Source: Clostridia bacterium
GTDB taxonomy: Bacteria; Bacillota; Clostridia; Christensenellales; Aristaeellaceae
Length of the DNA stretch: 56,048 bases
Direction of reading: 5' to 3'
Assembly: GCA_017532155.1 (NCBI GenBank)
Contig: JAFXJP010000006.1
Location: 1-56,048, forward strand
Shown here: positions 32,258 through 35,319 of the stretch, in pieces
Numbering within the stretch: the first letter of the stretch is position 1
Layout: every line of letters starts with the position of its first letter
Notes under the pieces: generated by a model
What the model was told of the DNA's origin: nothing
What the model saw: only the letters and a program-made list of their open reading frames with translations
Database searches by the model: none
Made by a program: the position numbers and the translations under genes

Positions 32258-34678
32258 ATGCCGACAACTGCGTTTGACAAGGAGTCAATTAAAAAGTCGA
32301 TCGTAGGCAAGATTCAGCGTTATAACGGCCGTACGCTGGAGGATGCGACCGAGCAGCAGATATATCAGGCCGTTGCGTCTACCATTCGCGATCAGATCAT
32401 GCAAAAATGGGTGTCTGCCCGTGAGGCGGATAAAACCTATATGGGCAAGCGCCTTTATTATCTGTCTGTTGAGTTCCTGATGGGTCGCAGCCTGCAGTGC
32501 AATGCGGTAAACCTCTGCTCGATGGAAAACGTGCGCGAGGCGCTGATGGAGCTGGGCATCAACTGGCGCCATATTTTCCGCGAGGAGCCCGAACCTGGCC
32601 TCGGCAACGGCGGTCTGGGCCGTCTTGCCGCCTGCTTCCTGGATTCTCTGGCTTCTGTGGAGCTGCCTGCCATGGGCTGCTCCATCCGCTATGAATACGG
32701 CCTTTTCCGTCAGCGTGTCGTGGACGGTCAGCAGGTGGAGGTGCCTGATAACTGGCTGGAAAACGGAAACGTGTGGGAAGTTCCTTCTCCCGATGACAGC
32801 GTGGTCGTGAACTTCGGCGGCCATGTAGAAATGGTCGAAGAGAACGGCCGTACCAATTACAAGCTGTGCGATTATCGCAGCGTGCAGGCCGTGCCGTATG
32901 ACATGCCCATCGCCGGCTATGACTGCAATACCGTCAACACCCTGCGCTTGTGGCGTCCCCGCAGCGTGAAGGAAAACCTGAACCTGGGCGCCTTCTCCTC
33001 CGGCAACTATGAAAAGGCGCTGGAGCAGGATCTTTCTTCCATCATCAGTAAAGTTCTCTATCCCGAAGACAGCCATTACGAGGGCAAGAGCCTGCGCCTG
33101 ACGCAGCACTACTTCTTCACCAGCGCTACGCTGCAGTATGCGGTGAAGGACTTCAAGCGCCGCTTCGGTACCCGCTTCAATCTGATGCCCGAAAAGATGA
33201 CGGTGCATATCAACGATACGCATCCGGGCCTGGCGATTCCCGAGCTTATGCGCATTCTGATGGATGAGGAAGGCCTGGGCTGGGATGAGGCGCAGGCGAT
33301 CGTCAGCAAGACTGTGGCTTATACCAATCATACCGTGCTGTCTGAGGCGCTTGAAAAGTGGCCCGAGCAGATGATGAAGGAACGTCTGCCCCGCATCTAT
33401 ATGATTCTGGAGGAGATGAACCGCCGTCTGTGCGCGCGCCTGTGGAACGCCTTCCCCGGCGACTGGGACCGCATTGCCAAGATGGCTATCCTCGCCTACG
33501 GTCAGGTGCATATGGCCAATCTGTGCGTGGCGATGAGCTACTCCGTCAACGGCGTCAGCCGCCTGCACGGCGAGATCCTCAAGGCGGATACCTTCAATGA
33601 TTACTATCAGCTGATGCCCGAAAAGTTCAGCTATATCACCAACGGCATCACCCACCGCCGCTGGCTGATGGCCTGCAACACGCATCTGCGTGATCTGATC
33701 ACCAGCGCGATCGGCGATAAGTGGTATAAGAACCCCGAGTATCTGAGCGAGCTCAAGCCCTTTGCCGATGACGCGGCCTTCCGCGCCGAATTTGAAAAAG
33801 TAAAGCGCTTCAATAAGCATCAGTTCAACCACATGCTTGATCAGCGCCAGGGCATGACGGTGGATGAGGACTTCCTCTTTGACACCCAGTGCAAGCGCCT
33901 GCATGAGTATAAGCGCCAGCTGCTCAACGCCCTGCACATCCATGTGCTGTACAACCGCATTATGGATGACCCGAACTATACCATGGTGCCGCGCGTATTC
34001 ATCTTTGGCGCCAAGGCCAGCCCCGGTTATTACAAGGCTAAATTGATCATCCGCTATATCCTGGCGCTGTCCAAGATGATTGATAAATCTCCCCGCGCCC
34101 GCAAGATGCTGCGCGTGGTCTTCGTGGAAAACTATGATGTTTCCGCCGCCGAAGCCATCATGCCGGCGACCGATCTGAGTGAACAGCTCTCTACGGCCGG
34201 CAAGGAAGCCAGCGGCACGGGCAACATGAAATTCATGATGAACGGCGCGCTGACGATGGGTACCATGGACGGCGCCAATGTGGAAATCTACGAGCAGGTA
34301 GGCGCGGATAACATTTATATCTTCGGCATGCGTGCGGATACTGTGGCGGTGCTCGAGCGTGAGGGCGGTTACAACCCGCTGCAGATCTTCGAAAACAATG
34401 CTGAGGTTCGCCGCGCATTGACGCAGATGATCGATGGTACGCTGATGCCTGACAGCCCCACGGCCCTGCAGGAACTGTACCACGATATGCTCTTCAACGA
34501 TCGCTACTTCGTTATGAAGGACTTTGGCAGCTATTCGATGGCCCAGCGCCGCGTGAACGAGGATTACCTCGACCGCGATAAGTGGCTGCGCATGGCGGTG
34601 CTTAATACTGCGTCTTCCGGCATTTTCTCCTCCGACCGCACGATCCGCGAGTATAACGAGAAAATCTGGCATATCTAA
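32258..34678 (+). CDS. glgP: Glycogen/maltodextrin phosphorylase
   Basis: This 806-residue enzyme releases glucose-1-phosphate from alpha-1,4-glucans. The N-terminal Y-Y-L-S-V-E-F-L-M-G-R and L-G-N-G-G-L-G-R-L-A-A-C are family marks. The PLP lysine is K658 in E-A-S-G-T-G-N-M-K-F, with G-T-M-D-G-A-N-V-E-I following. The start at 32258 follows GGAGGG. No other glycogen genes are in the window, so it stands alone. Codon choice is biased toward C-ending codons, suggesting high expression. Its transcript ends in the hairpin array at 34680. Confidence 0.95.
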   Translation: MPTTAFDKESIKKSIVGKIQRYNGRTLEDATEQQIYQAVASTIRDQIMQKWVSAREADKTYMGKRLYYLSVEFLMGRSLQCNAVNLCSMENVREALMELGINWRHIFREEPEPGLGNGGLGRLAACFLDSLASVELPAMGCSIRYEYGLFRQRVVDGQQVEVPDNWLENGNVWEVPSPDDSVVVNFGGHVEMVEENGRTNYKLCDYRSVQAVPYDMPIAGYDCNTVNTLRLWRPRSVKENLNLGAFSSGNYEKALEQDLSSIISKVLYPEDSHYEGKSLRLTQHYFFTSATLQYAVKDFKRRFGTRFNLMPEKMTVHINDTHPGLAIPELMRILMDEEGLGWDEAQAIVSKTVAYTNHTVLSEALEKWPEQMMKERLPRIYMILEEMNRRLCARLWNAFPGDWDRIAKMAILAYGQVHMANLCVAMSYSVNGVSRLHGEILKADTFNDYYQLMPEKFSYITNGITHRRWLMACNTHLRDLITSAIGDKWYKNPEYLSELKPFADDAAFRAEFEKVKRFNKHQFNHMLDQRQGMTVDEDFLFDTQCKRLHEYKRQLLNALHIHVLYNRIMDDPNYTMVPRVFIFGAKASPGYYKAKLIIRYILALSKMIDKSPRARKMLRVVFVENYDVSAAEAIMPATDLSEQLSTAGKEASGTGNMKFMMNGALTMGTMDGANVEIYEQVGADNIYIFGMRADTVAVLEREGGYNPLQIFENNAEVRRALTQMIDGTLMPDSPTALQELYHDMLFNDRYFVMKDFGSYSMAQRRVNEDYLDRDKWLRMAVLNTASSGIFSSDRTIREYNEKIWHI

Positions 34679-34702
34679 CGGACTTTGGCAGGACAAAGTC
34701 CT

Positions 34703-34736
34703 CGGTGAAAAATCAGCTAAAGCTGTTTTTTCACCG
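34703..34736 (+). terminator. Probable glgP terminator within the hairpin array
   Basis: CAGC-TAAA-GCTG followed by TTTTTT, with an A5 run before it that pairs with the T run and an outer CGGTG/CACCG clamp. Confidence 0.7.
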
Positions 34737-35090
34737 CTCATCATTTTCCTGTGAGGCTACGCCTCACGGCCGGAAAATGATATAGGAAGCAGTATTCCAA
34801 CTGCTCCTCGCGGCGTACATGCCGCCGCTGCGGATTACAAAAGAGGGCGCTGCGCCCCTCTTTACTCCCCGCTGATTTAGTGCCGATTTTGCATAAATGA
34901 AGGGCTTTGAATCTTCTTCCAAAGCCCTGCATTTCCCAAAGGTGACAGTAAATCGAGGAGAGCAACGAGAGGCGCAGCGCTCTCGTTTATTATCCGCAGC
35001 GGCGGCGTGTACGCCGCGAGGAGCAGCCAGAGGCTGCTTCCGGTATCATTTTCCGGCCGTGCGGCTTGCCGCACAGGAAAATGATGATAT

Positions 35091-35124
35091 CCGAAAAAGA
35101 ACGGAAGCTCCCGTTCTTTTTCGG
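35091..35124. terminator. Strong hairpin, likely terminator of the DUF1540 gene
   Basis: A perfect 14-bp stem, CCGAAAAAGAACGG and CCGTTCTTTTTCGG, with loop AAGCTC. It lies just downstream of the minus-strand gene's stop, behind the H1' hairpin. Confidence 0.65.
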
Positions 35125-35145
35125 AGCAGGATGCCTGCATCCTGC

Positions 35146-35319
35146 TTATTTCGCGTGATAGCTGCCGCACATGCTTTCATCGGCGGCCTCGCCGGTGTAA
35201 GCCATGGGCGTAGGCTCCACATTGATGCTTTCCAGGTCGCAGTAGTTTTCGGCGTTGTGGTGCTTGCAGGAAGCAACGGAGCAATGAATGCACTGATGAC
35301 CGGCCTTGGGATGACTCAT
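35146..35319 (-). CDS. DUF1540 small cysteine-rich protein
   Basis: This 57-residue protein starts at 35319 behind AAGGAAGG and ends in TAA at 35146-35148. Six cysteines in the order C-I-H-C-S-V-A-S-C-K-H-H, then Y-C-D-L-E-S-I-N-V and M-C-G-S-Y, match the DUF1540 pattern of clostridial proteins that probably bind a metal. The function of the family is unknown. The H1' hairpin of the palindrome touches its stop codon. Confidence 0.8.
   Translation of the reverse strand: MSHPKAGHQCIHCSVASCKHHNAENYCDLESINVEPTPMAYTGEAADESMCGSYHAK

Follow-up and report, generated by a model that had tools for sequence, protein, structure and literature searches.

Two facing copies of a non-autonomous IS1182-type element probably make up a palindromic hairpin array between glgP and a DUF1540 gene in a Clostridia bacterium

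Introduction

Some transposable elements are directed to a structure in the DNA and not to a sequence. IS1272 and TnSha1 of staphylococci belong to the IS1182 family and, in the accessible text of the reports that describe them, target a stem-loop, often a terminator, with no sequence preference (PMC5678879, PMC4923244). In the model given for IS1272 in that text, an extruded hairpin is attacked, and joining at its 3' feet deletes the hairpin, while joining at its 5' feet would duplicate it; duplication of the whole hairpin is thus one branch, known as pathway b, of this model (PMC5678879).

In this paper we analyse an intergenic block in a stretch of 56,048 nucleotides (hereafter the window; contig JAFXJP010000006.1 of assembly GCA_017532155.1) from a Clostridia bacterium of the family Aristaeellaceae. 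A first-pass annotation, made from the letters alone, described the block as a palindrome of thirteen ordered hairpins with covarying stems, and suggested that it could be a non-autonomous element with very long inverted ends, a REP/BIME-like unit or a structured RNA; dispersed copies, empty sites in relatives and target-site duplications were named as the features to look for. A comparison with the rest of the genome and with related genomes makes it very probable that the window holds two copies of a non-autonomous IS1182-type MITE of about 200-330 bp, flanking one two-way terminator.

Methods

The assembly that contains the window (G000) comprises 62 contigs and is 82.5% complete. Genes were called with a home-made, codon-scored caller trained on seven open reading frames of the window, which gives a crude view of gene setting; the start codon of glgP is a call of this program. 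Gene context taken from open reading frames only was tried and set aside, because long antisense reading frames made the strands unreliable.

Relatives were searched with a covariance model (R1) in 250 genomes of the family and in an order-wide sample of 200 genomes. At most 13 candidates per genome were scored in the family and at most 16 in the order, so that copy numbers from these searches are lower bounds. Covariation was measured on an alignment of 39 copies with an intact core, made up of 32 that passed a filter and 7 dropped ones that were restored by hand.

Flanking direct repeats were sought in two sets of elements. The first set consisted of 13 distinct elements from six genomes, with both ends found by a strict pattern, taken from all loci then in hand. 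For the second set, 40 places were selected by hand among the covariance-model hits, blind to their ends, in nine genomes outside the first set; some of these places had also gone into building the model. In addition, 31 loci with an IS1182-type transposase were scanned in the same bacterial family.

Results

The gene upstream of the element pair, glgP, encodes a carbohydrate phosphorylase and lies at 32258..34678 on the plus strand (Pfam PF00343, Phosphorylase, 1002.6 bits), with a stop codon that ends at 34678. The DUF1540 gene (PF07561, 42.6 bits) is convergent with it, at 35146..35319 on the minus strand, and has its 3' end at 35146. These stop positions and Pfam matches bear out the gap between convergent genes, its coordinates and the two gene names of the first-pass annotation, which had also seen no ORF or transposase inside the block; the open reading frames that overlap it are mechanical and fail to score as coding in our caller.

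Folding with base pairs limited to a span of 60 nt recovered all thirteen of the hairpins described in mirror order around a central one: 34680-34701, 34703-34736, 34740-34781, 34784-34808, 34810-34828 and 34840-34863 (inner stem) in the left half, the central hairpin H7 at 34901-34928, and 34964-34987, 34999-35017, 35020-35040, 35044-35086, 35091-35124 and 35125-35146 in the right half. Two extra weak pairings, 34873-34900 and 34929-34963, flank H7 in this fold. The inverted arms match over 70 nt at 87%, 32 nt at 91% and 31 nt at 81%. The fold energy of the block is -314 kcal/mol, compared with -154 +/- 6 in 100 shuffles, but much of the resulting z of -25 stems from the inverted arrangement of the block itself. 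The minimum-energy fold is one long hairpin in which half A is paired with half B, and the thirteen-hairpin fold is weaker than this (-218 vs -314 kcal/mol).

The number thirteen is made up of two sets of five element hairpins and three others. Copy A of the element (hairpins H2-H6) occupies 34702..34897 on the minus strand and has a degenerate left end, so its boundary is approximate; copy B (H6'-H2') occupies 34929..35124 on the plus strand, again with an approximate left boundary. The three others, to which no strand is assigned, are H1 (34680..34701), directly 3' of the glgP stop; H7 (34901..34928), which is terminator-like on the minus strand; and H1' (35125..35146), just beyond the DUF1540 stop and likely the terminator of that gene.

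A DNA search of the window's own genome with the block gave 41 aligned pieces at 16 places; the pairing of these pieces reflects the palindromic query. The repeat unit is one half of the block, a chain of about five hairpins. It stands singly at 14 of the 16 places and as two units at the window locus and at a locus on contig C55; the thirteen-hairpin symmetry, for which the first-pass annotation knew no named class, is a trait of the window locus and not of a class. Copies A and B, about 190 bp each and opposite in orientation, are 82.4% identical. The nearest relative of A among the 39 aligned copies is L003, on another contig of the same genome (95.6%), and in the tree of these copies A groups with L003 (support 0.77), and the partners of B are L008 (0.63) and L004 (0.90). 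Since A is closer to L003 than to B, the halves are best seen as two separate insertions that face each other. A palindrome that arose as a unit, that is, the element with very long inverted ends proposed at first, or one in which B is an inverted duplicate of A, would account for the way in which the halves mirror one another along most of their length. Both origins were rejected on the relatedness of A and B, and with single units at most places of the genome we regard them as highly improbable.

Full-length relatives have terminal repeats of the form CAG..TGTCRAAAA, the right one of which is folded into its own hairpin. The elements L006, L011 and L019 start with CAGTCTGTCAA, and their terminal hairpin reads CAGGGTGTCGAAAA from outside; the ends of L005 and L013 are other or decayed. 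Window copies A and B have no clean CAG ends, and theirs are decayed ends. In the same genome a direct repeat of 15-28 bp, itself a hairpin, flanks 6 of the 14 copies examined (L005, L006, L011, L013, L019 and L021), and there is no duplication at the other 8, one of which has a 10-bp match that we take as chance.

In the first set, flanking direct repeats were found in 12 of the 13 elements and in none of 156 mismatched-flank controls. Eleven of the 12 are hairpins, with folds more stable than those of 95% or more of their shuffles; 10 of the 12 are T-rich at an outer edge (at least five T in eight bases). The duplicated repeats are therefore terminator-like, and from their position and T-runs we infer that they are terminators. 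In the second set, direct repeats with a score of at least 13 occur at 17 of the 40 places (control: 8 of 1560 mismatched pairs); 14 of the 17 are hairpins, and by the script's test CAG stands just inside both repeats in 5 only. Direct repeats are absent from the other 23 places, five of which are stretches ending at a contig end. Target-site duplications, which the first-pass annotation had singled out, thus accompany copies in the window's genome and in both sets.

In the window itself, H1 and H7 have 7 of 8 stem bases in common, and among the 19 other perfect stems of at least 8 bp H1 alone comes this close to H7. To judge from this likeness, H1 is a probable old, diverged duplicate of H7. 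H1' has no detectable similarity to H7 and resembles neither H7 nor H1, so that a target-site duplication is probable for A and was not found for B.

A duplicated hairpin of 21-32 bp lies directly outside CAG-type ends in 6 of the 31 IS1182 loci (L190, L191, L193, L197, L198 and L073). These six were read from the sequences; the script's tally of ends that start exactly at CAG is 2, owing to base offsets. The remaining 25 loci are without hairpin duplication, 20 with no repeat-plus-end pair and 5 with chance-like repeats of 10-11 bp. Against NCBIfam NF033551 (IS1182, cut-off 270), the transposases score 432 bits in L190, 415 in L197, 409 in L198, 420 in L191 (the same as L173) and 427 in L193 (the same as L174); the transposases of these loci that were scored in the search of family genomes reach 409-439 bits. 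The transposase gene is interrupted in L191; in L073 it is interrupted by a stop, and the open piece scores 264 bits, under the cut-off. L197 and the non-autonomous element L161 have 16 identical bases at their left ends, CAGCCTGTCAAAAAAG, and L198 reads likewise once the final base of its repeat is included. L197 and L161, which have the longest common end sequence, belong to different genera. CAGACC-type ends occur on both sides of the transposase in 4 of 19 PF13751 loci (L073, L173, L174 and L176, the last of which runs off its contig). The terminal inverted repeats are therefore common to full-length relatives and autonomous IS1182 elements, and are not visible in A and B. The IS1182 transposase family was found in 63 of the 250 family genomes, in 32 of them above the NF033551 cut-off. 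None was found in the assemblies of G000 and its sister genome G007, where the gene is lost or unassembled.

BIMEs are intergenic, palindromic, modular and mosaic, and so is the element described here, which fits a REP/BIME-type repeat, as considered in the first-pass annotation, or an IS200/IS605-derived palindromic element moved by a Y1 transposase. Target-site duplications are not expected of Y1 (RAYT) transposition, however, and the insertion sites have duplications of 15-32 bp. With these, and with IS1182-type ends that match those of a DDE-transposase family, a Y1-based origin is scarcely credible.

The copies also vary in their modules. In some (L153:1126-1259, L155:7400-7533, L165:4169-4302, L167:3600-3733 and L170:4445-4578) another and longer folded module precedes the TATCATTTTCC hairpin; it lies around GGCCCAATGAG..GCCGAATTGAGAG or GGAACTGTAAAGGAGCAAC and may be a separate structured unit. 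The 328-bp elements at L161:4083-4410 and L165:7283-7610 have extra hairpins (CTGAGCGTCGCCCGTCAGGGCGAC..) within the TATCATTTTCC hairpin region, in what looks like mosaic exchange between element types. In L037, near 1501, the left side of the copy begins with right-end-like sequence (TAGGGTGTCGAAAAAAATCATATC), which suggests an exchange of ends. In its ends the element at L128:3682-3989 (G052) is like the others, and its flanking hairpin is duplicated with 27 of 30 bases matching, but its internal hairpins look different. In the IS1182 element of G167 (L174:1370-1450) the left end, including the terminal repeat, is tandemly duplicated; terminal duplication is mentioned for IS1272 too in the accessible text of PMC5678879.

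In the congener G005, a lone hairpin, AGGGCTTTG..CAAAGCCCTGC, is all that stands between the stop codons of glgP and the DUF1540 gene, and its stem is the H7 stem of the window. In G007 the C-terminal 225 residues of glgP are 98% identical, and directly 3' of the gene stands a single terminator with the stem GGGCCTTGG..CCAAGGCCC, closely similar to that of H7 and G005; the DUF1540 gene of this genome is located elsewhere, away from glgP. On the strength of these single hairpins with an H7-like stem, H7 is most likely the original two-way terminator shared by glgP and the DUF1540 gene. Between the sister genomes G000 and G007, filled and empty sites occur in both directions, as read directly from the sequences (global alignment misplaced the inserts). 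At one other locus G007 is filled, with the element flanked by ATACTGCCCARTCGGGCAATTT, and in G000 the site is present once, in diverged form; the G000 copy L008 adjoins a terminator that stands alone in G007. The empty sites looked for in relatives were thus seen in G005, at the G007 glgP gene and both ways between G000 and G007.

Three other congeners in which glgP and the DUF1540 gene are adjacent (L219, L221 and L222) have a different intergenic sequence of about 190-210 bp. These gaps are not plain empty sites, and they neither support nor contradict the insertion reading. The gap in G008 (L219:619-817) holds another repeat-like sequence, TCCTTCGGCTCCGCTTGCGCTTCGCTCAGGATGACA and its near mirror, and the glgP-DUF1540 gap may therefore attract insertions repeatedly.

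The search of the genome and its relatives, then, returned many dispersed copies with empty sites. A dispersed, non-autonomous mobile element, as the first-pass annotation had envisaged, agrees with the 16 places in the window's genome, the lack of a gene inside and the empty sites, whereas a structured RNA present as a single conserved syntenic gene is contradicted by copy number and empty sites alike.

The element stems are maintained. In the 39 aligned copies 98.7% of cells pair, a figure that holds for intact cores only, as 28 of the 67 core matches failed the filter and were left out, most of them without a module or with a module interrupted. Double-sided changes were found at 14 of 32 pairs, and the covariation score is 0.253, compared with 0.106 in shuffles, none of 500 of which reaches it; sliding the pair partners destroys the score. 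The number of further pair types is not extreme: it is 28, shuffles give 25.4, and 32 of the 500 attain it. The compensated stem changes reported earlier from the two halves of the block are thus confirmed on 39 copies, but the selection on the fold deduced from them is unproven, because the pattern could also arise from errors of replication by which imperfect palindromes are corrected, and covariation alone is then no proof of such selection.

A structured cis-acting RNA that is retained for its function and mobile only incidentally, such as a long two-way terminator or a stabiliser of mRNA 3' ends, would likewise have strongly covarying stems and be located at gene 3' ends. It is also compatible with a MITE, which may do such work as well. 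The empty orthologous sites in both directions and the precise duplications argue against it, as do a position that is not conserved and an Rfam scan of the window that returned no family at the gathering score. Among pairs with a Watson-Crick majority, G-U departures outnumber A-C departures on the element strand by 15 to 5 cells, which is too few independent events to indicate a strand-specific RNA. We therefore consider this explanation unlikely, and prefer two MITE insertions around one terminator.

The R1 covariance model matches 120 of the 250 family genomes and 28 of 50 genera. In the order-wide sample 14 of 200 genomes match, and 8 of these are not members of the family; hits as weak as about E 1e-7 may belong to other hairpin repeats. 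The exact core pattern occurs in 28 named stretches from metagenome-assembled genomes titled Clostridia or Clostridiales, and the titles include Lapin, which we take to be rabbit, and sheep rectum among others. Plasmid and phage collections gave no matches. All 40 copies lie outside called genes, and 35 of the 38 with genes called on both sides adjoin a gene 3' end. The flanking genes are co-directional at 23 of these 38 sites, convergent at 12 and divergent at 3; at 17 of the co-directional sites the element runs against the genes and at 6 along with them, which is a lead only. The element is thus inserted at terminator-like hairpins near gene 3' ends, with a whole hairpin left on each side.

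Discussion

We propose that an IS1182-family transposase would act in trans on the element and would recognise an extruded hairpin, and not a sequence, because the duplicated hairpins have unrelated sequences. Each hairpin arm would be joined by its 5' foot to a 3' end of the element, and repair would then copy the entire hairpin. With the whole hairpin copied, each insertion would regenerate the terminator on both sides and spare the genes, and this duplication probably makes insertions of related elements nearly harmless. In the window, A and B would have hit the same terminator in opposite orientation, to give the order terminator - A - terminator - B - terminator and hence the palindrome. 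Against this reading, only H1 and H7 look like a duplicated pair in the window, and since H1' is unlike H7 the third terminator is inferred only. The internal hairpins would probably insulate against read-through, act as donor structures, or both.

A broader and more tentative idea, to which we give somewhat less than even chances, is that of a family-wide, terminator-homing lineage. Its transposase would read DNA shape and duplicate any terminator hairpin regardless of sequence, so that insertions heal the termination signal; selection would preserve the shape of the hairpin chain, whose hairpins would serve as donor cruciforms or as insulators in both directions, even as the sequence drifts, and the chain would grow by capturing further hairpin modules.

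The many natural insertions described here pair IS1182-type ends with complete hairpin duplication, so far a branch of the IS1272 model, and they supply filled and empty site pairs, together with autonomous partners, for testing structure-directed target choice. They explain intergenic hairpin arrays, which might pass for new structured RNAs, in uncultured gut Clostridia, and suggest a way for a mobile element to do almost no harm, namely by restoring the terminator it enters. In a literature search that covered few subscription journals, we recognised no IS1182-type MITE and no whole-terminator duplication, and the accessible main text of a review of small repeats does not mention IS1182 (PMC10969869).

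Like BOX, RUP and SPRITE, as presented in the accessible text of that review (PMC10969869), the element is short, non-coding, dispersed, mostly intergenic and able to form stem-loops; it differs from them in being a chain of covarying hairpins with IS1182-type ends and in the whole-hairpin duplication. The IS1182-family insertion sequences L197, L198, L190, L191, L193 and L073 (NF033551) share with it CAG-type ends, with up to 16 identical bases, a hairpin beside the ends and duplication of the whole hairpin at the insertion site, but they are about 1.5 kb long and have a transposase gene (interrupted in L073 and L191), whereas the window element is about 0.2 kb, gene-less and built of hairpins. 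IS1272 and TnSha1, in the accessible text on them, resemble the window-type elements in targeting stem-loops that are often terminators, but delete the target hairpin partly or wholly and do not duplicate it (PMC5678879, PMC4923244). By analogy with the IS1272 model, the elements described here look like products of the 5'-foot route, whereas IS1272 and TnSha1 take the 3'-foot route (PMC5678879, PMC4923244).
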